The notes under the pieces: model-generated
Database searches by the model: none
What the model was told of the DNA's origin: nothing
What the model saw: the letters and a program-made list of their open reading frames with translations, nothing else
Made by a program: the position numbers and the translations under genes
Assembly: GCA_903878285.1 (NCBI GenBank)
Contig: CAIRHB010000003.1
Coordinates: forward strand, 1 to 34,742
Direction: 5' to 3'
Length of the DNA stretch: 34,742 bases
Origin: Candidatus Adlerbacteria bacterium
GTDB taxonomy: Bacteria > Patescibacteriota > Minisyncoccia > Phycocordibacterales > SBAW01
In this document: positions 10,850-29,557 of the stretch, in pieces
Layout of the letters: each line of letters starts with the position of its first letter
How positions within the stretch are numbered: the first letter of the stretch is position 1

Positions 10850-13345
10850 ATGAAAGGACCGAAGGGGCCAGGAAGTGCAGCAAGTCTGAGGGTGTCGCTT
10901 GCAGAGAAACACGTTCCTAACCAAGAGCCTGTGGTAGAGTCACCAAATACTATTGAGAAAATGGTTAGCGTCCTTAGTAGTCAAGACGCACAACGTGTAT
11001 TAGATGCACAGAATAAAATTCGTGAAACCATTCGTTGTGGAGGTGACAAGCGCAACGAGTGTCTCGAGTCCTTCGAGTTTGCAATGTCTGCAGCGTTACA
11101 AGAGGGAATGCTTCTAACGCCAGACCTTATGTTATTTCTTTCAGAAACCGCACATGCAGCAGAAGTGTCTCTTTTTGGAAGACGTCTAACCCTTTCTGTG
11201 TACTCTAGTCAGCTTGCCCCTGGGTTTTCTGATGAGATATCTCGTCTAGAGCAGTCAGAGGATTCGTCCGCAATTGTTAAACTACATAAATTGATTGATG
11301 CATATCAAACACTACAAGCATCGTTTTTAGATATCAATCCAGATGACCCAGAATGGCAGGACAGTAGACTGTCCCGCGGTCCGTTGCAGGACGTCATGGA
11401 TGCCAAACTGAGTAGTGTGGTGCGAATGCAACAGAATTACTTACTGCGCGAACATGCAAGAGAAAGTTTTGAGGGCGCAGATTTGTATGGAGACAGCGGT
11501 ACCACAGTAAAGAAAGGAGGCATGTCAGGCACGCCTGGTGGTATGCAAGATTCCTTTATTTTTTCGCACGAAGTGTTGCAGGCATCAAACACCCTTCGTC
11601 GGCAGTTGGGCGTTTGGGAGGGCTATCCGGTGGCGCAAGAATTAGTGCCACTTGCGCCTGGTTATGTCGGCTTTTACTCGCACGGTCGATTGGAAAAAGT
11701 ATATGCAGCGCCGATTGAAGTTGTTAACACTGACAAAGAAGACCAAGCTCTTGTTGCTCAAAACAACACCACGCACGACTGGATATATGGTTCGTTAAAC
11801 CGGCCACTGTCACCCTACGCCCGTTCTTCTTTAGGACTCAATAAATTGCGTGATTACTGGAATCTCATCAAACAACTGGGGGATGAACAGTTTTACTTTG
11901 ATCTTGATCGCATTGATCTCGGAGCGCTTCATCCAATGGTGCGTACAACCATACTGGAACATAACGCTTATATCTTACAAAGACTGCATTCTTTGGATCC
12001 GAAGCCTGCGCCTGTGTCAGAGGCAGAAGTGGACGAGAAATTGTTTCTCGGGGATGCTACCGACGATCGAAAGTATTTGTATAAATATTTTTCAAGTTAT
12101 GGAATGCGTCGAAAAGTAGAAAATGATTTTGGCGTATCAATAGCATCTCTGCACTTTGCAGAACAAATGGAGTTTATGGATTTGCTAAACAGTGCGGATA
12201 CAGAAAACTTTGCCCAATATCAAGAATTCTGTTCGCTTTATGGGGTAGATGCGTTGCGAACTTTCTTAGTAACAAATAAAGACTCTGTGCTACGCGATAA
12301 GGTGTTTGAGTTCGCGCGTGCAACAACGCCCGAGCAGGCGCGTGCTGTGTTTGCTGCATACGGCTCGCTGGTCGAGTCGATTGACCACATGGGTGAGTAT
12401 CTGCGCGAGTCGTTTGGTGCGCAGGACACAGGCGCCGTGGGTGCGGTAGTCGAGCGACAACTTAACCGCGCACGCAAGCTGCTTGCTGATGCGCACACGT
12501 ACAAAGACGAACCCGAGCGGTTGGTGGCGCTCGCGCAGTCGGTGCAGGCCGATATTGCGCTGTTTACCGACGCATGTCGTGTGCTCAAAACACGCAATCA
12601 ATTGTCGCTCGAGCAGGTGCGGGACGGCACACTCGAGAGTGTCAACGCAGCGCAGCTCCAAGAGGTCGACTGTACAAACATGCGGGACATTTGGGAATAT
12701 CGCTACGCGGGGAAGTATGGCGCGGAGTTGGAGCACGAGTTGCGAACACAATTTGAAAAGGCGCTCGCGAGTGAGCAGACCACGTTCTATATTTATCGCT
12801 ATAAAGGTCAGATTGCGTGCTACTTTTCTGCAGAGCACATTGGCATCAGCGAAGACGAACTCCCTAAGAAGCATCTCGCCTCGTTTCTCACGAGCCAGTC
12901 GTTTGAGGGTGGCATGCTCGGTCAGGCGGTGATGGAGCAAGGCATCGACCAAGAACAAAAAGGCTCGGTATTGGTCGCGGAGTCGGACGTCGACATTGCA
13001 CGCACCCCTATCGTGAGCAAATACTTCGAGGACTACAACTTCTACGCCACGCACCGCTTTGAAGACCAAGGTGAACCAACACTTGCTTTAGAGCGACGCG
13101 AGGGAGATCTATTTGCTACCAAGCACTTGAGCAAAAAGGATGTCCAGGCACGTGCGCATCATGGTGAGTCGTCGATGCTGGCTCAATTTGTAGAGAGCGA
13201 CACTGTGCCCAACTTCGACCACTATCTCCAAAGAAATATGGTGTTGACCCGGTATTTTGTTGCCAAAGATGCGCAAGGGGCGCAAAAATACTACGCGGTG
13301 TTCGAACGATTGTCACTTTCGCCAGCGCTTGCTTTAGCTGCATGA
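10850..13345 (+). CDS. Large protein of unknown function (831 residues)
   Basis: No family is recognised. It has no signal peptide or membrane segment and appears soluble. The first part is rich in helices (IEKMVSVLSSQDAQRVLDAQNKIRE; ISRLEQSEDSSAIVKLHKLID). A middle part contains a G-rich loop TVKKGGMSGTPGGMQDSF. The last 200 residues have an alternating beta pattern (FYIYRYKGQIACYFSAEHIG; GSVLVAESDVDI; NFYATHRFED) faintly like a GNAT acetyltransferase, without a clear acetyl-CoA loop. The start at 10850 follows TAGTAT by 7 nt; a frame open to 10634 crosses clpP. Base composition changes inside the gene: AT-rich codons up to about 12.25 kb, GC-rich after. Its 3' end overlaps the convergent TrmB gene by 55 bp. 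Confidence 0.75.
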   Translation: MKGPKGPGSAASLRVSLAEKHVPNQEPVVESPNTIEKMVSVLSSQDAQRVLDAQNKIRETIRCGGDKRNECLESFEFAMSAALQEGMLLTPDLMLFLSETAHAAEVSLFGRRLTLSVYSSQLAPGFSDEISRLEQSEDSSAIVKLHKLIDAYQTLQASFLDINPDDPEWQDSRLSRGPLQDVMDAKLSSVVRMQQNYLLREHARESFEGADLYGDSGTTVKKGGMSGTPGGMQDSFIFSHEVLQASNTLRRQLGVWEGYPVAQELVPLAPGYVGFYSHGRLEKVYAAPIEVVNTDKEDQALVAQNNTTHDWIYGSLNRPLSPYARSSLGLNKLRDYWNLIKQLGDEQFYFDLDRIDLGALHPMVRTTILEHNAYILQRLHSLDPKPAPVSEAEVDEKLFLGDATDDRKYLYKYFSSYGMRRKVENDFGVSIASLHFAEQMEFMDLLNSADTENFAQYQEFCSLYGVDALRTFLVTNKDSVLRDKVFEFARATTPEQARAVFAAYGSLVESIDHMGEYLRESFGAQDTGAVGAVVERQLNRARKLLADAHTYKDEPERLVALAQSVQADIALFTDACRVLKTRNQLSLEQVRDGTLESVNAAQLQEVDCTNMRDIWEYRYAGKYGAELEHELRTQFEKALASEQTTFYIYRYKGQIACYFSAEHIGISEDELPKKHLASFLTSQSFEGGMLGQAVMEQGIDQEQKGSVLVAESDVDIARTPIVSKYFEDYNFYATHRFEDQGEPTLALERREGDLFATKHLSKKDVQARAHHGESSMLAQFVESDTVPNFDHYLQRNMVLTRYFVAKDAQGAQKYYAVFERLSLSPALALAA

Positions 13346-14130
13346 GTCTTGGGTACATATGCGCTCGGATGACTCCACGCCAACTCAAACAGCCCGCGAT
13401 GCATGGCAGCGATTGCGGGATCGTTGACGATGACACCAATCTTCTGGGCGCCGAATGTGAGATATGACACGCGGTCGTCATATATCTGCGTCGAGACACC
13501 GAATGTGGGTGTTGACCACGGGATAAGCCGCTCTTCCGTAAGGTCGTTGAGATACCCTTGGTCGACGAGTGCTCGGTTAGCGGGTGTGTCGACGGCGATG
13601 TTGCGCTTGTGGAGGCCTCGTTTTTTGCGAGCGATACCAAACGCTCTGCTTGCCTCACTCATCTCGCGCTCCACCGTCTCGATGTCTATATAGGCGAGTA
13701 TTTCGGTCTTTGCGGTGAGTGCGTCGTTGAGCACCTCACGTACACCATCTGCGCCTTCGTAAAACCGTATGCCCGGCTTGCCTGACACAAGGTTGAAGTC
13801 GGATATGAGCCGCGAGATCGCGCCTTTGAGCGAGGACTTTGCATTTTGAGCATTTTCGAAGCGTTTTTCGACCAATTCCTGCAACTTCAGCGGGTGCGCA
13901 GGGGCAAATACGGCGACTTTGCCCGGTTCGTCGCGTTTTTCGACCAAGCCGGATGCCTCGAGACTGCCCAGTACCTTATATACCAGTGGGCGGGAGAGGG
14001 GGACGTGCCTTTTGAGCACCCCAGCCTGCAAGGGGCCGCGCAGTACGAGCGTCTCGTAGACGAGCGCCTCGTCTTTCGTCAAACCTGCTTCGACCAAGCT
14101 CTGACCATAGGAAAGTTCTTTGGTGTCCAT
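13291..14130 (-). CDS. TrmB-family transcriptional regulator (paralogue 3)
   Basis: A 279-residue protein. The winged helix reads LVEAGLTKDEALVYETLVLRGPLQAG, then VLKRHVPLSRPLVYKVLGSLEASGLV and a wing with KVAVFAPAHP. The linker helix LVEKRFENAQNAKSSLKGAISRL is followed by a sensor region with IRFYEGADGVREVLNDAL, the same position as in paralogues 2 and 4. The Ala/Ser-rich tail is longer than in the others. The start is supported by TTGACA (14164-14159), a 16-nt spacer and TATACT (14142-14137), 6 nt before ATG. It overlaps the convergent 831-residue gene at its 3' end. Confidence 0.85.
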   Translation of the reverse strand: MDTKELSYGQSLVEAGLTKDEALVYETLVLRGPLQAGVLKRHVPLSRPLVYKVLGSLEASGLVEKRDEPGKVAVFAPAHPLKLQELVEKRFENAQNAKSSLKGAISRLISDFNLVSGKPGIRFYEGADGVREVLNDALTAKTEILAYIDIETVEREMSEASRAFGIARKKRGLHKRNIAVDTPANRALVDQGYLNDLTEERLIPWSTPTFGVSTQIYDDRVSYLTFGAQKIGVIVNDPAIAAMHRGLFELAWSHPSAYVPKTHAAKASAGESDNRSNTA

Positions 14131-14136
14131 ACTGCC

Positions 14137-14164
14137 AGTATAGTCGCAGAGGACAATTTGTCAA
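14137..14164 (-). promoter_or_regulatory. Promoter of TrmB 3, leaderless
   Basis: On the minus strand TTGACA, 16 nt spacer, TATACT, 6 nt to ATG 14130. Confidence 0.75.
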
Positions 14165-14258
14165 GCTTCCGTGACAGAAAAAACCTTATTTCACATAAAA
14201 TACATACAAATCAAGGGTATTTTGCGTGACACGAGCACGATTATTTGCCACGCATAGC

Positions 14259-14287
14259 TTGACACTTGGCAACCAAGATGCTACGAT
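14259..14287 (+). promoter_or_regulatory. Consensus promoter of the GC-rich RNA element
   Basis: TTGACA (14259-14264), exactly 17 nt spacer, TACGAT (14282-14287). Transcription should begin near 14294. No start codon follows closely, unlike the leaderless promoters of the chromosomal genes. The spacer contains ACCAAGATG, whose complement CATCTTGGT recurs at 14370-14378. Confidence 0.75.
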
Positions 14288-14293
14288 GTTGTC

Positions 14294-14689
14294 AGAACCA
14301 AGGGGCTTCACCCCAAGGCAAGTTCATCACAAACGGGAGGTTTCATTCGAATCGTCCCCCACCTCTAGTCCCGACTGCCATCTTGGTATAGGGGAGGTAC
14401 TACGGCCATCCTGAGAGTAATCAAAGGACTAAGCGTAGAAAGAGGAGAGGGTGGGGATGAGAGACGGCTCGAAGAAAATCTACATTTGCAGATATGGTCT
14501 CTTGGGTATGGCGCCTCCGCAAATGGGCTCCCAGCCGTGAGAGTAGGGCGAGAAGCCGGCCGTATCGACCGAGTGCTAACGCAAGTTAGGACATCGTTTG
14601 GAGAGAAAGACCTAAACCAGCTTTATCTCCAAGAATGTCTTCGCTGCCAAAGGGGTGTGGTGCCCCGAGTAGGAGAGAGAAGATGATCG
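14294..14689 (+). ncRNA. Structured RNA of unknown class at the head of the element
   Basis: About 400 bases after a strong promoter with no convincing reading frame. It folds locally. One hairpin is CTAAC-GCAA-GTTAG (14576-14589), a GNRA tetraloop stem extended by GT/AC. A long stem pairs TTGGAGAGAAAG (14598-14609) with CTTTATCTCCAA (14621-14632), one mismatch, enclosed by GACAT/ATGTC (14590-14594 with 14635-14639). CATTTGC pairs with GCAAATG, inside ACGGCT/AGCCGT, near 14.46-14.54 kb. A short hairpin GGGGCTTCACCCC lies near the 5' end. It does not show the conserved cores of RNase P RNA, tmRNA, SRP RNA or 6S RNA. A 5' untranslated region for the ORFs behind it is an alternative to a separate RNA. 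Confidence 0.55.
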
Positions 14690-14763
14690 TTGACAATTGA
14701 ATAGGAAGAATAGGTAGTAACGTGAAAAAACTTTCTGCGAGAGCAGATAATCACAGTGTTATT

Positions 14764-14837
14764 CCTCTTCTCCGGCAATAGATGTGAATTTAGTGCCGGA
14801 AAGAGGGGTCGCAACATCCGTCGCTTTGGCGAGGATG
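14764..14837 (+). promoter_or_regulatory. Structured leader motif, copy 1
   Basis: A long stem CCTCTT-CT-CCGGCA (14764-14777) with TGCCGG-A-AAGAGG (14794-14806) is followed by GGTCGCA and a second hairpin CATCC-G-TCGC-TTTG-GCGA-GGATG (14815-14837) with a bulged G. The 3' part, from the GGAAAGAGG end of the long stem to the end of the second hairpin, is nearly identical in copy 2 at 15.7 kb, while the apical half of the long stem differs but still pairs. A TTGACA at 14690-14695 lies upstream without a good -10. It precedes ORF A by 120 nt. Possible roles are a riboswitch, a protein-binding site or a packaging signal. Confidence 0.65.
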
Positions 14838-14956
14838 GGTGATTCCTAAAGGGGCAGACACCGCGAACGCGAGAGCTAGTAGCCCTGTCCCTTGTAACGG
14901 CCCAGATCGGGCCAACCGACCGGCGCGGTATCGCCGAGAGCTCTAGGAGAGCGAAG

Positions 14957-15460
14957 ATGGAGATTCAGTTCGAGACTATGATTTCGGTCGGCGAACAGCC
15001 GACCGACCTCGTGGACTTTTTCCGGCAGATGTTGCCGGAATTCGAGGCGGCGGAATGGAACGGGGCTATGCCCCGTCTCTTCCAGCGGGGCATTCCCACC
15101 TGGCGGTGGGATGAAATCCTCGCGGACGGTGTCCGCGAGGTGTCTGAAGGGGAGGCCGAGCGCCTCGGCCTCACCACGTTGAATGGAGACCTGGCGTGGC
15201 GCACTGCCACGTCCGGGTACCTCTATGCCCCGGGGACGATCCGGGACGATCCGGAGCTTCCCGGTGTTCGTTGGTGCCGGTGGGAGTACCACGGCGCCCG
15301 CCGTGGTTTCGGCAGCCAGAGATGGCTGCCACCCGAGTGCGTGCCCGACCCGCAGGCTGCGGGTCGCCTCCGGGTCACGGAAGTGACCGGTACGTACGGC
15401 CGCGCCGAGCGGCTTCGGCGGCGTGAGCCACCACTTCCGCCGGAGGTGTTGCCCGAGTAG
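14957..15460 (+). CDS. ORF A of the GC-rich element, unknown protein rich in perfect mRNA hairpins
   Basis: A 167-residue predicted soluble protein of no recognised family. It is rich in Trp, Arg, Pro and Glu (PTWRWDEIL; VRWCRWEYHGARRGF). The ribosome-binding site GGAGAG (14946-14951) is 5 nt before ATG; the same site precedes ORFs B and C. Third codon positions are strongly GC, a sign of coding, and far above the flanks. The coding strand holds at least eleven perfect stems of 6-11 bp with short loops, for example 15118-15140 (10 bp), 15152-15172 (9 bp), 15311-15330 (8 bp, GAGA loop), 15346-15366 (9 bp), and 15444-15470 (11 bp) whose loop contains the stop codon. The RNA structure seems to be selected together with the protein. 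Confidence 0.65.
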   Translation: MEIQFETMISVGEQPTDLVDFFRQMLPEFEAAEWNGAMPRLFQRGIPTWRWDEILADGVREVSEGEAERLGLTTLNGDLAWRTATSGYLYAPGTIRDDPELPGVRWCRWEYHGARRGFGSQRWLPPECVPDPQAAGRLRVTEVTGTYGRAERLRRREPPLPPEVLPE

Positions 15461-15470
15461 GGCAACACCT

Positions 15471-15690
15471 CAAACCCCTCCGTATGGGGATATTTCTTTT
15501 GTTCGTGCGAGCGCTGACACGGCAGCGTTCGCAACAGGCCGGGGAGTGCCTGGGTACAAACTCTCCAAACCCGAGGCGAGCGCATCTGGAACATGTCGCT
15601 CGTCCTCCTACTTGAAGCCAGTATCCGATGACTCACTATGAGCTAATCGAATAGCGGTTTCAAACGAGGAGAAAGGAAATCCACCCATGT
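15471..15690 (+). other. Structured spacer between ORFs A and B
   Basis: There is no gene in the 392 bases between the ORFs. The hairpin pattern continues: GCGAGCGCTG (15507-15516) with CAGCGTTCGC (15523-15532), ten pairs including one G-U, and a stem of about ten pairs with one bulge around 15575-15610 (GCGAGCG-CAT with ATG-T-CGCTCGT). A short CCCC/GGGG hairpin near 15475 followed by a T-rich stretch could be a weak terminator or attenuator after ORF A. Confidence 0.5.
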
Positions 15691-15693
15691 GAT

Positions 15694-15797
15694 CCCTCTT
15701 TTCCGCACTATGCCGGTATGCGAGCAGCACAAATATGTTTGCGCTCGCCCCATCGTGCTGGAAAGAGGGGTCGCATATCCGTCGCTTTGGCGAGGAT
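15694..15797 (+). promoter_or_regulatory. Structured leader motif, copy 2
   Basis: CCCTCTTTTCCGCAC (15694-15707) pairs with GTGC-T-GGAAAGAGGG (15755-15769). The apical part differs from copy 1 and holds its own hairpin GCGAGC/GCTCGC. The shared 3' part GGAAAGAGGGGTCGCA leads into ATCC-G-TCGC-TTTG-GCGA-GGAT (15777-15797), with the same bulged G and TTTG loop as copy 1. The changes CCGGCA/TGCCGG versus CCGCAC/GTGCTGG keep pairing, which argues for a conserved RNA fold. The start of ORF B is 55 nt downstream, after a GGCCGCACATGCGGCC palindrome. Confidence 0.65.
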
Positions 15798-15852
15798 GAG
15801 TGATACCCTACGTTCACAACGGCCGCACATGCGGCCAAATATGGAGAGTAAA

Positions 15853-16470
15853 ATGAAAATCGTGTTCACGACGACGTCGACTTTTTCTTTTGACACGCTC
15901 ATCGCGTTGACGAACGTGGAAGGGGTCGGCTACGACCCCAACTTCGGCTGCACAGCCGAGGTGGCGACCTGCCTGAAAGGGCAGGTCAAACTCTATCAGA
16001 AGGGGGCACTGGTGCAGGAAGCCCCGGCGGAGGGGTTCCGTTGGAAAGAGGTCGTCGTCGACGACCTCAAGGGCATGAAGGCGACATGGGTGACCCACGC
16101 GGGGCACACTTACGGCCTCCTGGGCGACCAGCCTGACGGCAGGGTCGCCTGGGTGTACAACGGCCCCGACCGAGGTTTCCTCCATCAGGTGTTACTGCCT
16201 GCTCTGGAGGACCCACGGGTTCTGTGGGTCGAGGGTTCCTATGGGCGATACGAGGGTCCCGACGCCCTCGAGGCCTACCGCCGTCGCAAGACGGCGTGGG
16301 TTAAAATGTTTGACCCACTGCGGCGGGCGAAGGAGCTCGACGGTCGCCCGTCGAGCTTCGATGTTGGCCGGGTTGCGGCCGCCGCCTACGTGGCGGCCGT
16401 GACCGAAGACCAGGAGACTCACCCGCCATACTGGCAGGAGATCCTGTCCTGCCTGGAACGGCTGGGTTAA
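15853..16470 (+). CDS. ORF B of the GC-rich element, unknown protein rich in perfect mRNA hairpins
   Basis: A 205-residue predicted soluble protein of no recognised family, with a beta-rich first half (MKIVFTTTSTFSFDTLIAL; KATWVTHAGHTYGLLGDQP) and a helical second half (ALEAYRRRKTAWVKMFDPLRRAKEL). The start was set at ATG 15853 because GGAGAG (15843-15848) is 4 nt upstream; a frame open to 15718 runs through the leader motif. The coding strand holds at least eleven perfect stems of 6-10 bp, for example 15966-15987 (8 bp), 16048-16068 (9 bp), 16279-16296 (7 bp, GCAA loop), 16334-16357 (10 bp) and 16376-16399 (8 bp). No sequence similarity to ORF A is apparent. Confidence 0.65.
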   Translation: MKIVFTTTSTFSFDTLIALTNVEGVGYDPNFGCTAEVATCLKGQVKLYQKGALVQEAPAEGFRWKEVVVDDLKGMKATWVTHAGHTYGLLGDQPDGRVAWVYNGPDRGFLHQVLLPALEDPRVLWVEGSYGRYEGPDALEAYRRRKTAWVKMFDPLRRAKELDGRPSSFDVGRVAAAAYVAAVTEDQETHPPYWQEILSCLERLG

Positions 16471-16531
16471 TTCTTCTCGTTCGGTGTGTGTTTTGCCCGC
16501 ACACCGGACGTCTGGCTAGGCAACACTTGGC

Positions 16532-16559
16532 GCGGGCGGTGGTTGGTTCCACCGCTCGC
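16532..16559 (+). other. Eleven-bp hairpin between ORFs B and C
   Basis: GCGGGCGGTGG (16532-16542) pairs with CCACCGCTCGC (16549-16559), eleven pairs with one G-U and a 6-nt loop. A 7-bp stem CGGTGTG/CACACCG (16482-16506) precedes it. No T run follows, so it is not a terminator. Confidence 0.6.
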
Positions 16560-16669
16560 ATCTTGGTCCCGACAATGCTTTGGTTAGCAACGTCAGGTCC
16601 TTCTTTGAGGACATAACTGCGCGGCTCATGGTGAGCCTCGGGTGGTGTCTTCAAACAGAGGAGAGACTG

Positions 16670-16927
16670 TTGGTCAAAAAGAAAGAACCCGAGATCATTA
16701 ATCTCGACAACACCATGCTCTCGGCGGACACCGTCGCGGCGTGGCGTGCTGTCGCCGAGCGTATCGGCCCGGCGTTTTTGCAGATTAGGATTCGCCCAAG
16801 CGACATCCCCGACGAGCGGGCGCGGGTCGAGCTCGACGGTGCGTTGACGATTTTCGTCACGCTGCCGGGCGGCAGGGGCGAGATCAGTTTGCGTGTACCA
16901 GCTGAGCACTGGTTGCGCAAGCAGTAG
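16670..16927 (+). CDS. ORF C of the GC-rich element, unknown 85-residue protein
   Basis: TTG at 16670 is chosen as start because the element's common ribosome-binding site GGAGAG (16660-16665) lies 4 nt upstream, exactly as for ORF B. The frame is open further upstream to 16580, but without a comparable site. The protein starts with a Lys-rich end (VKKKEPEIINLDNTML), then a helix (SADTVAAWRAVAERIG) and a beta segment (VELDGALTIFVTL, EISLRVPAEHWL). No family is recognised. Hairpins inside the coding sequence are fewer than in ORFs A and B. The stop is followed at once by a run of hairpins and the ribozyme. Confidence 0.55.
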   Translation: MVKKKEPEIINLDNTMLSADTVAAWRAVAERIGPAFLQIRIRPSDIPDERARVELDGALTIFVTLPGGRGEISLRVPAEHWLRKQ

Positions 16928-16928
16928 G

Positions 16929-17015
16929 GGCGGGAGACAACCCGCCTAGCAACAGAAGCAGCCCGCCACCTTGGTGGTCGGCTGCAAAAATCCCGCGCAG
17001 TTCGACTCTGCGCGG
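16929..17015 (+). other. Three consecutive hairpins, the last with a tRNA-like T arm
   Basis: The stems are GGCGGG/CCCGCC just after the ORF C stop, then GCAGCC/GGCTGC (16957-16985) with an inner CCACC/GGTGG, then CCGCGCAG (16993-17000) with CTGCGCGG (17008-17015). The last loop is TTCGACT, the sequence of a tRNA T loop on an extended stem. No full tRNA or tmRNA can be built around it. Confidence 0.6.
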
Positions 17016-17106
17016 TTCCGTCTCGGGATGGTGTCCCGACTGATGAGTCCCCCCTCGTCCCTCGATATGCTCGGGACTACGAAGGGCAAGTTAGGACGAA
17101 ACGGAA
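17016..17106 (+). ncRNA. Type III hammerhead ribozyme
   Basis: All core elements are present in order. Stem III is TTCCGT (17016-17021) with ACGGAA (17101-17106). The cleavage base is C17022, after the GUC triplet. Stem I is TCGGGA (17023-17028) with TCCCGA (17034-17039), loop TGGTG. The core CUGAUGA is at 17040-17046. Stem II begins GTCC (17047-17050) and closes GGAC (17094-17097), with a branched interior of about 43 nt that includes GTCCC/GGGAC. GAAA is at 17098-17101. The open helix is III, so it is type III. Predicted self-cleavage falls between 17022 and 17023, on the same strand as ORFs A-C. Downstream TTGCCC (17118-17123) could compete for GGGCAA in stem II. Confidence 0.9.
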
Positions 17107-17130
17107 GAATAAAAAAATTGCCCCTCCGGC

Positions 17131-17195
17131 GTTGCGGGTGAGTGGTGCGTTGAGCTTTCGCTCCGCACTAGCTAATACTACGCGAGCGAGACCTC
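17131..17195 (+). other. Intergenic hairpin right of the element
   Basis: GTGCG-TT-GAGC-TTTC-GCTC-CGCAC forms a 9-bp stem with a 2-nt bulge near 17145-17170. No gene is seen between the ribozyme and the toxin gene. Confidence 0.45.
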
Positions 17196-17246
17196 AAAAT
17201 CTCTCTCCTCGCGCATCAATCGCGCCCGCAGCGCCGGGGGTGTATC
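17196..17246. repeat. Direct repeat copy A, flanking the toxin-antitoxin pair
   Basis: A 51-bp sequence beginning AAAATCTCTCTCCTCGCGC and ending GGGGGTGTATC. Copy B at 17813-17861 has the same sequence except one CT deletion and one C/T change. Copy A ends 1 nt before the toxin stop codon. Confidence 0.9.
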
Positions 17247-17247
17247 T

Positions 17248-17580
17248 CTATATCGTCGTGATTGCGCGCAACAGCTTGTTGATGCTTCGCGTTGTTTTGG
17301 TATCGAGCGTGCCGATAGTCTTGATAATCCGTCGTGCATCAATCGCTCGCAGTTGGAAGATGAGCGCGATTGAGGTTGTGGACAATCCATTTTCTTTGCT
17401 AGGCGAAATCGGGAGAGTCGAGGTAAAGCGCAAAGATGCCGAGTTTGAGGTGAGTGGAATAAGTAATGCGATACCGTTTTGTACCGAGACGATAATGCCA
17501 GGACGCAATCCAACTTGCTCATGTCCGAAGGGTGTAGCGCCAAGGTCGACCATGACGACAGAACCGGCAGCATGTTTCAT
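17248..17580 (-). CDS. MazF/PemK-family toxin
   Basis: A 110-residue predicted mRNA endoribonuclease. Motifs of the MazF fold are GSVVMVDLG at the N-terminus, then QVGLRPGIIVS with the conserved R-P (catalytic Arg region), VPLTS-like IPLTSNSASLRF, GLSTTSIALIFQLRAIDARRI with the conserved Ser/Thr and the D-x-R-R segment, and IGTLDTKTTRSINKLLRAI at the end. The start is the ATG at 17580, which overlaps the antitoxin stop (ATGA), typical of coupled toxin-antitoxin pairs. It lies directly between two 50-bp direct repeats. Confidence 0.88.
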   Translation of the reverse strand: MKHAAGSVVMVDLGATPFGHEQVGLRPGIIVSVQNGIALLIPLTSNSASLRFTSTLPISPSKENGLSTTSIALIFQLRAIDARRIIKTIGTLDTKTTRSINKLLRAITTI

Positions 17581-17786
17581 GCGCGCTGTTTGTGTGACCA
17601 ATGGGAAAAGTCGGCGGTCGAGGCAGCGTCCCACATCCCGAGCTCTTCTTGTAGTTGGGTATCTAGCTGCAAGAGTTGGTTGTAGTGTGTGAGTGCATTG
17701 TGCACGTACTCCTGCTCGGAGATATTAAGTCGCGCACGATTGCTCGCAACCTGTTTTTTTGCTGTTTGCGAGATGGTGAGTTTCAT
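17577..17786 (-). CDS. Antitoxin of the MazF-type pair
   Basis: A 69-residue protein MKLTISQTAKKQVASNRARLNISEQEYVHNALTHYNQLLQ, with a ribbon-helix-helix-like N-terminus and an acidic, Trp-containing C-terminus (LGMWDAASTADFSHW) suited to wrap a toxin. The start was set at 17786: TATACT with a TG-C extension (17799-17794) lies 7 nt upstream, so the operon mRNA is leaderless. A longer frame to 17870 would translate repeat B and is rejected. It overlaps the toxin start by 4 nt. Confidence 0.8.
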   Translation of the reverse strand: MKLTISQTAKKQVASNRARLNISEQEYVHNALTHYNQLLQLDTQLQEELGMWDAASTADFSHWSHKQRA

Positions 17787-17812
17787 GTCAGACAGTATAG
17801 CATAGTGCGCCA

Positions 17813-17861
17813 AAAATCTCTCCTCGCGCATCAATCGCGCCCGCAGCGCTGGGGGTGTATC
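17813..17861. repeat. Direct repeat copy B, upstream of the toxin-antitoxin pair
   Basis: 49 bp, nearly identical to 17196-17246. It lies just upstream of the antitoxin -10 box, so the repeat edge supplies the -35 region. Confidence 0.9.
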
Positions 17862-17875
17862 CTGTTTCATGCATC

Positions 17876-28592: not shown

Positions 28593-28772
28593 AACCATTC
28601 TCCACCCCAGAACCCCGAGGTGCGGGTGCGCCGTGGCGCAGGTTTTCGACGAACTGTCTGCAACCAGTAAATCACTCTGTGTCAATACTGACAAAGAGTG
28701 TGTCTGGTGCTGGTGGTAAAAATGGCTCTGTGGAATGGCTTTTTGTGTATAAGTATCCTGTTGTCAAAGATA

Positions 28773-28801
28773 TTGACAGCGCAGGCGGTTTCGGATACCA
28801 T
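28773..28801 (+). promoter_or_regulatory. Promoter of TrmB 4
   Basis: TTGACA (28773-28778), 17 nt spacer, TACCAT (28796-28801). Transcription should start near 28808, leaving a short leader of about 20 nt before ATG 28829. Confidence 0.7.
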
Positions 28802-28828
28802 ATATATGCGTTATATCGCTACATCTAT

Positions 28829-29557
28829 ATGAACAATCCGACACAAACACTCGCGAAGTTGGGATTATCGGACAAGGAGGCGGCTGTTTACTTCGCTTTG
28901 CTCAAGTTGGGACAGGGGTCGGCTCAGGCTATTGCTCGTATATCGGGGCTCAAGCGGCCGACGACGTATGTGATTTTGGAGGAGCTGCGCCGAAAGGGGT
29001 TGGCACTGAAGGCTCCAGGGTCGGCGAAGCAGATGTTTAGCGCTCTGTCACCTGAGGAGTTGGTGCGCGAGATGCGAAAGAACGTCGCAGAGACCGAGCA
29101 CCTGCTGCCGGAGCTGATGCGGCTCTACCAGGGGAGCACCGCGCGGATCAAGACGGTGTACTTTGAGGGCATCGAGGGCATCAAGCAGGTGATGGACTAT
29201 AAGCTGGGGGACGGGCAGGAGCTGGTAGCCTTTTGGGCTATCGAGCAGAATGTCCCGAAGGAACTCTCACGCTACTTTATCGACTGGGCGGAGAAGCTGA
29301 AGCAAAAAAAGATTACCATGCGCGGCATCGTACCCGAGCATCCGACGCTCAAGAAGTATCGCGCCGCCGACGCAGCGTATGGGCGGGACATCAAGACAGT
29401 GCCATTCGAGCAGTTCTCGTCCGAAGTGGCAATCGACACGTCGGGAGACATTGTGCGCATCCATGACTACAAAAACCTGCAGGGGATTGTGATTGAAAAC
29501 GCCGACGTGGCAAAGACGGTGCGCGAGATATTTGAGATGCTGTGGACTCGGGTGTAG
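28829..29557 (+). CDS. TrmB-family transcriptional regulator (paralogue 4)
   Basis: A 242-residue protein from MNNPTQTLAKLGLSDKEAAVYFALLKLG. The winged helix contains AQAIARISGLKRPTTYVILEELRRKGLAL and a wing KQMFSALSPEELV. A helix of about 30 residues (MRKNVAETEHLLPELMRLYQ) and a sensor region with VYFEGIEGIKQVMDYKL follow. It is closest in this window to paralogue 2 (same KRPTxYV motif, DLRKKGLALK versus ELRRKGLALK). A frame open to 28679 would include the promoter and is rejected. It ends 20 nt before the DksA-like gene. Confidence 0.87.
   Translation: MNNPTQTLAKLGLSDKEAAVYFALLKLGQGSAQAIARISGLKRPTTYVILEELRRKGLALKAPGSAKQMFSALSPEELVREMRKNVAETEHLLPELMRLYQGSTARIKTVYFEGIEGIKQVMDYKLGDGQELVAFWAIEQNVPKELSRYFIDWAEKLKQKKITMRGIVPEHPTLKKYRAADAAYGRDIKTVPFEQFSSEVAIDTSGDIVRIHDYKNLQGIVIENADVAKTVREIFEMLWTRV

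Follow-up and report, generated by a model that had tools for sequence, protein, structure and literature searches.

A chromosomal unit with a hammerhead ribozyme, recurring RNA parts and exchanged protein genes in Patescibacteria

The window analysed here, a stretch of 34,742 nucleotides, is contig C3 of genome G000, a 930-kb genome (97.6% complete) of a Paceibacteria-type member of the Patescibacteria (candidate phyla radiation; CPR). Between about 13.29 and 17.25 kb it holds a unit composed of a divergent gene for a TrmB-family regulator, a promoter, a 5' RNA, a boxA-like motif, two leader hairpins, three open reading frames (ORFs) each led by a Shine–Dalgarno (SD) sequence, a hammerhead ribozyme and a 3' hairpin. 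Sequence comparison makes it one member of a previously uncharacterised family in which the RNA parts are constant and the protein genes are exchanged. The features of the unit are as follows (aa, amino acids; RBS, ribosome-binding site; z, folding score).

13291-14130, minus strand: TrmB-family transcriptional regulator, 279 aa (Pfam TrmB E 2.3e-12), divergent from the element promoter
14259-14287, plus strand: sigma-70-type promoter, TTGACA-17-TACGAT, 10 of 12 consensus matches
14294-14690, plus strand: 5' RNA domain, kept in G027 at 83-84% up to 14571
14690-14704, plus strand: boxA-like motif TTGACAATTGAATAG; other elements have a motif like it ahead of the leader
14753-14815, plus strand: leader hairpin, copy a, 57.5 bits with covariance model R1 (seed member)
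14957-15460, plus strand: ORF1, 167 aa, unrecognised; SD GGAGAG; coding region highly structured
15471-15777, plus strand: RNA module between ORF1 and ORF2, with leader copy b (15684-15777) inside it; 88% over 309 nt against G027, the flanking ORFs being different
15853-16470, plus strand: ORF2, 205 aa, unrecognised; SD GGAGAG; coding region highly structured
16670-16927, plus strand: ORF3, 85 aa, TTG start; RBS GAGGAGAGA (16658-16666) complementary to the 3' loop; weakly structured
17015-17107, plus strand: type III hammerhead with an enlarged stem II (RF00008 match); predicted cut between 17022 and 17023
17113-17250, plus strand: long irregular 3' hairpin, z -7.2, with the unpaired apical loop AAAATCTCTCTCCTC at 17196-17210

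An earlier sequence-only reading of this DNA had drawn the element at 14259-17125. These limits are too narrow. The TrmB gene and the 3' hairpin, which reaches to about 17250, are assigned to the unit because both are conserved, along with the 5' RNA, in a relative, G027, and because TrmB genes are associated with hammerheads: of 42 hammerhead groups, 15 have such a gene on their upstream side at 3.5 kb or less (divergent in 13), and just one has it downstream. (Relatives' genomes are coded G001, G005 and so on; the genomes are metagenome-assembled.) G027 matches the window DNA at 13238-14571 (84%; the whole TrmB gene and 5' RNA), 14701-14776 (91%), 15471-15777 (88%) and 17113-17239 (80%), yet none of the window's three ORFs is present there. 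The conserved entity is therefore an RNA chassis plus a regulator. The promoter read at 14259-14287 holds up, and a promoter-like sequence occupies the same position in G005, G006, G114 and G027. The 0.4-kb structured 5' RNA that had been proposed stands as a conserved segment, but its folding is not unusual (z -1.3 to +0.3).

The order of parts recurs in other genomes as promoter and 5' RNA, leader, ORF, hammerhead and 3' hairpin, as the sequence-only reading would have it; homologues scattered as separate ordinary genes with neither ribozyme nor leader are not what the relatives show. A subset of them has the layout of the window, including a purine motif, GAGGAGAGAG, near the start. What varies is the cargo. 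Paceibacteria relatives retain the RNA parts and the regulator and carry different genes, which are MoxR-vWA, exonuclease-like or unrecognised, and the window has its chassis, but not its ORFs, in common with both G027 and G005. Conversely, the same cargo can be found at different loci: G027 and G171, the latter of a different family, have common MoxR (65% identical) and VWA (55%) proteins, and an exonuclease-like protein is 67% identical between G107 and G141. The cargo of G114 matches bpMoxR (PF20030, E 4e-13) and VWA_2, families with ties to conflict systems (PMC7159879). A cargo protein of G018 (L066 6734-7126), with relatives in G104 and G141, shows a weak STIV B116-like match (Pfam E 0.008).

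The three same-strand ORFs of the window all look coding. GC content is lowest at second and highest at third codon positions (GC2 and GC3), and codon adaptation is 0.63-0.69 against 0.64 in the neighbouring TrmB gene. The deviant codon use previously remarked on is a weak contrast and not clearly a foreign one; the contrast in GC content with the flanks is weak as well, the element's 0.60-0.63 being equalled at around 24 and 31 kb, where the window reaches 0.61. That the proteins are unrecognised is confirmed: no Pfam or PHROGs family was matched above chance, PADLOC gave nothing, and ORF1 and ORF2 have no match in the PDB. AlphaFold2 models of these two are unusable (mean pLDDT 37 and 40). 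No homologue of ORF1 occurs among the elements compared. The weak P0001 match in G033 (45%, E 2.8e-4) was rejected, as it lies in an unrelated region near a copper-type ATPase gene.

The dense hairpins described earlier are borne out by two measures. In tiles of 150 nt the mean z is -2.9 inside the element and -0.3 outside, on both strands. In codon-preserving shuffles ORF1 scores -5.65, ORF2 -5.16 and ORF3 -1.5, compared with +1.1 to -2.2 for ten other genes of the window; since protein and codon content are fixed in these shuffles, the folding is not an effect of composition. The same holds for the cargo ORFs of relatives' elements (n=27), with a mean of -4.85 and 25 of the 27 below -2, against a mean of -0.57 for control genes. 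The elements' own TrmB genes, which lie on another transcript, score about 0, so selection for folding follows the ribozyme-bearing transcript. Upstream of the hammerheads of relatives, tile means lie at -1.8 to -2.9 over roughly the first 1 kb, a raised level of folding that weakens to about -0.6 to -0.9 from 2 kb.

The complete type III hammerhead reported at the 3' end is genuine by the signs available from sequence. It scores 41.0 bits against RF00008, with E values of 8.9e-7 for a scan of 3 kb and 6.1e-8 for the whole genome, aligns with the covariance model over its full length (1-54) and has the core CUGAUGA ... GAAA, GUC as its NUH cleavage site, an open stem III and closed stems I and II. 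Folding with the catalytic core open costs 0.6 kcal/mol relative to the minimum free energy. Matches to RF00008 occur in 37 of 197 genomes of the order, 30 of 380 of the phylum and none of 14 control genomes. Homologous small CxxC proteins lie directly 3' of a hammerhead in G093 (L041 5660-5960) and G056 (L033 835-1140).

A ribozyme and coding regions selected for folding might suggest, as the sequence-only reading would in its strongest form, that the folded, ribozyme-trimmed RNA is itself the transmitted form, a mobile or packaged element akin to obelisks, retrozymes or RNA viruses with ordered structure. Presence or absence at one locus and cargo common across families would also suit such an element. 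We consider it very unlikely. The unit is chromosomal, with a bacterial promoter, SD sites, a TrmB regulator and boxA; no polymerase, reverse transcriptase (RT) or capsid is matched, and nothing in phages, plasmids or IMG/VR; it folds into local hairpins rather than one rod; and the window has a single hammerhead, at the 3' end, so that no unit-length circle would be made. The sequence-only reading, which had offered a mobile, packaged or regulatory RNA, was right that the element is RNA-centred, as modules, hammerhead and synonymous-site structure recur while proteins change; a packaged or self-replicating RNA is not supported, given an ordinary promoter and SD sequences and the lack of any polymerase, viral, phage or plasmid match. 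Unnoticed in that reading were the divergent TrmB gene, the exchange of cargo, the boxA-like motif and the 3' hairpin, whose loop has complementary sites.

Obelisks (PMC11922315, PMC12226432) likewise combine a self-cleaving ribozyme with strongly folded coding RNA in bacteria, but they are circular RNA agents of about 1 kb, rod-like in fold and lacking a DNA copy, that encode Oblins; the present unit is chromosomal DNA with bacterial signals, on a contig (G000:C3) with housekeeping neighbours, its hairpins are local, and its proteins are different and vary between elements. Retrozymes and other retroelements, which would have an RT or hammerheads in direct repeats at both ends, are not indicated either, the window having one hammerhead and its ORFs no RT match.

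The hammerheads could also be passively carried in the remnant of a prophage, a satellite or a defence island. In bacteria they often flank small non-conserved ORFs, their role is an open question, and a persistent relation to phage genomes has led to a suspected phage link (PMC6155905); here some cargo is conflict-like, as the bpMoxR match shows, and a MazF-like toxin gene lies next door. We regard this explanation as quite unlikely, for the elements have a promoter and a regulator of their own and are surrounded by housekeeping genes, there is no significant PHROG or PADLOC match, and neither phage collections nor plasmids give a DNA match. Matches of the leader pattern in IMG/VR (L204-L206) look like one match in a phage gene, with only 20 bits for R1, and were set aside as chance, as were matches of hammerhead plus loop in viral contigs (L076, L077) and pattern matches in contigs of Thermodesulfovibrionales, Halorubrum, Marinobacterium and Prevotellaceae, where there is no hammerhead.

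The duplicated leader noted before is real, and copy b reaches 68.6 bits with R1, the model of the leader hairpin AUGUUAUUCCUCUU ... AAGAGGGGUCGCAU. A search with R1 found 26 copies in 19 of 197 relatives. In G004, G012, G001, G015, G033 and G029 (L187-L190, L184, L185) the leader also lies some 4.5-5 kb upstream of tig, with tpiA close by in several of these genomes; the small ORFs that follow it are varied. Ahead of the R1 leader in elements there is often a motif (C)UUUGACAA-nn-GAAUAG, and most of eight rRNA leaders examined carry the same motif (CTTTGACAACTGCATA / CTTTGACAACAGAATA), at 134-388 nt before 16S; the 57 nt examined of the rRNA leader of G000 itself contain no boxA. The sequence CUUU[GA][AC] follows within 30 nt in 22 of 54 hammerheads, as against 52 of 1015 background windows (about 5%). 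We read the motif as boxA, which would act here in antitermination. In G141 the match to the 16S rRNA gene (C17:795-4000) is split into pieces that stand apart, which may mean that insertions interrupt the gene.

The 3' hairpin is 93% identical in G005 and 80% in G027. Across elements (z -2.2 to -9.4 in 11 of them) the stem sequence varies while the loop, AA(A)(C/U)(U)CUCUCCUC, is kept, also in other families. In the window this loop is perfectly complementary over 9 nt to the RBS of ORF3, and over 10 nt each to two purine motifs of the 5' RNA, GAGGAGAGGG at 14442-14451 (with one G-U pair) and AGGAGAGAGA at 14671-14680; matches of 13-14 nt lie near the start in G114 and G006, that with the 5' motif of G006 spanning 14 nt. 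The 2.85-kb element has six loop-complementary sites, the ORF3 RBS among them, compared with 18 in 61 kb outside, an excess that is suggestive only, since some of the sites are SD sequences. The loop pattern alone is not enriched, with 14 matches in 397 genomes and about as many for reversed controls, and therefore the loop counts only together with the hairpin.

These complementarities, and a loop that stays constant while its stem changes, invite the explanation that the locus serves mainly to make a regulatory RNA. The hammerhead would free a small 3' RNA, a long hairpin whose loop, CUCUCUCCUC, pairs with SD-like GGAGAG sites, be it in its own message or in others, and stops translation there, the structured ORFs being secondary. 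We think this unlikely, as it accounts neither for synonymous-site structure over many kilobases nor for chassis members that have no hammerhead.

The explanation we prefer, to which we give an even chance, is a regulated, cargo-exchanging chromosomal operon built on a constant RNA chassis, whose mRNA would be made and end-processed like a stable RNA by means of the ribozyme. The divergent TrmB-family protein probably controls the element promoter, and the transcript is probably handled as a stable-RNA precursor. The boxA-like motif would load antitermination factors that allow RNA polymerase to cross a long folded RNA. The conserved leader hairpins precede the ORFs, whose excess folding shows that synonymous sites have been selected to keep the coding regions folded. 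Near the 3' end of the transcript the hammerhead is predicted to cut, leaving the mRNA blocked at its end by a 2',3'-cyclic phosphate and freeing a 5'-OH RNA consisting mainly of the long hairpin; folding and blocked ends together may lengthen the life of the message. Freed or tethered, the hairpin loop CUCUCUCCUC probably docks, by its complementarity, on the 5' purine sites and on RBSs and so stabilises or throttles the message. Where a relative has several hammerheads, they are placed singly between cistrons, often with boxA next to follow. This arrangement fits a role in which polycistronic RNA is cut up to give individual stable messages, and it is comparable to the insulator RiboJ. The protein genes are interchangeable cargo, that of some relatives resembling MoxR-vWA conflict systems.

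Several observations weigh against this explanation. Some members, such as G027, have the chassis with no recognisable hammerhead, so the ribozyme is a frequent rather than an obligatory part of the family. The hammerhead of the window, at 41.0 bits, stays under the Rfam gathering score of 48.5, which is an annotation rule and not biology, and in its match stem II is enlarged by an insertion of 42 nt. The window's copy of boxA, TTGACAATTGAATAG, is imperfect, lacking the first CU of CUUUGA. The leader stem is paired in 90% of cells and conserved in sequence, with no covariation beyond that of shuffles, and the complementarity of loop and sites is likewise unaccompanied by covariation. Of the six sites complementary to the loop, about three look like ordinary SD sequences or are such sequences, so that the complementarity may partly reflect SD composition. 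Control DNA gave one TrmB match in 185 kb, a rate measured with element-derived queries, which biases it downward. Finally, the likeness of the chassis in G000 and G027 (84% DNA) resembles that of RNase Y (83% aa) and does not by itself prove transfer. An argument for transfer of the chassis between these two genomes from tig alone (53% aa) was dropped in view of that RNase Y value.

A wider claim, which we advance tentatively and at somewhat less than an even chance, is that these units form a class of their own among DNA-encoded elements, a new one whose defining part is the RNA. In such a class the chassis of boxA, leader, folded cargo, hammerhead and complementary-loop hairpin would be conserved and perhaps mobile, messages would be produced as stable RNAs and owe their maturation to ribozymes, and the proteins, some of which belong to conflict systems, would be passengers. 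There is a real chance that the family is a class of its own. The nearest precedent is the published remark on small ORFs flanked by hammerheads (PMC6155905). The present family fits that part and adds an architecture. Like other bacterial type III hammerhead loci (RF00008) it has the canonical core, the open stem III, small non-conserved ORFs nearby and, in some genomes, several hammerheads per locus; unlike them it is tied to TrmB, boxA, the leader, a 3' hairpin with a constant loop and synonymous-site folding, and no link to phages was found. In the open-access literature we found no paper on hammerheads in Patescibacteria.

RiboJ, a synthetic insulator, also places a ribozyme and then structured RNA ahead of an ORF, with a predicted 5'-OH end, and in E. 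coli it raises transcript about 2-fold and protein 2-10-fold (PMC6206723). RiboJ, however, is engineered and acts at the 5' end only, whereas the present hammerheads are natural, 3'-terminal or between cistrons, and combined with boxA. With the leaders of rRNA operons, where boxA serves antitermination (PMC4807359, PMC10250234), the unit has in common a CUUUGACAAC-nn-GAAUA-like motif, imperfect in the window's copy, and a long folded RNA downstream, but it carries protein genes and a ribozyme and no rRNA. Cargo like that of the MoxR-vWA ternary conflict systems (PMC7159879) is found in G114 (bpMoxR and VWA) and, as MoxR/VWA-like proteins, in G027 and G171; the window's ORFs have no such domains, and we found no report of an RNA chassis for these systems, going by the abstract of that source. 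If our explanation is right, Patescibacteria would use ribozymes and rRNA-type antitermination for long-lived protein messages, possibly carrying exchangeable cargo that includes conflict-type systems. The architecture in which bacterial hammerheads stand here is defined and recurs, and their partners in it (TrmB, boxA, leader, 3' loop and synonymous-site folding) can be measured, so that the question of their role becomes directly testable.

The genomic position of these units is itself recurrent. In eight congeners tig is followed by clpP at a distance of 12-54 bp. At least five congeners have such a unit adjoining tig: chassis or hammerhead inserts are placed there in G005, G018, G020 and G027, and the element of the window adjoins tig behind the MazF-like gene. 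As RNase Y is also near tig in these genomes, this is one syntenic hotspot with presence or absence of the unit and turnover of its cargo. Presence or absence and common cargo suggest that the unit may be mobile, but no mechanism is visible. The gene between the element and tig encodes a MazF/PemK-like toxin (Pfam E 1.4e-17) and is preceded by a small ORF (17251-17634 and 17580-17870, minus strand).

Some further observations concern processing motifs and a second locus. Tandem hammerheads, mostly 0.3-1 kb apart, lie between small ORFs, often with boxA following, in G056 (L033, L036), G062 (L035) and G129 (L030). A motif CUGUCUACUGGGG-hairpin-CUCAAGAGACAG is common to G027:C12 (L138/L179) and G018 (L140), and in G027 it lies just 5' of the 3' hairpin, in the hammerhead's place. 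It could be another processing motif, a candidacy we set aside when it did not recur elsewhere. The window has a second TrmB-family gene at 28679-29557 (plus strand), with a divergent minus-strand ORF that follows a leader (GCGCACCCGCACCTCGGGGTTCTGGGGTGG, minus strand) resembling leaders in G018 and G020. In the segment 28100-28900 folding reaches z -5.5 at 28651, and another cassette of this kind, of smaller size, may be present there.

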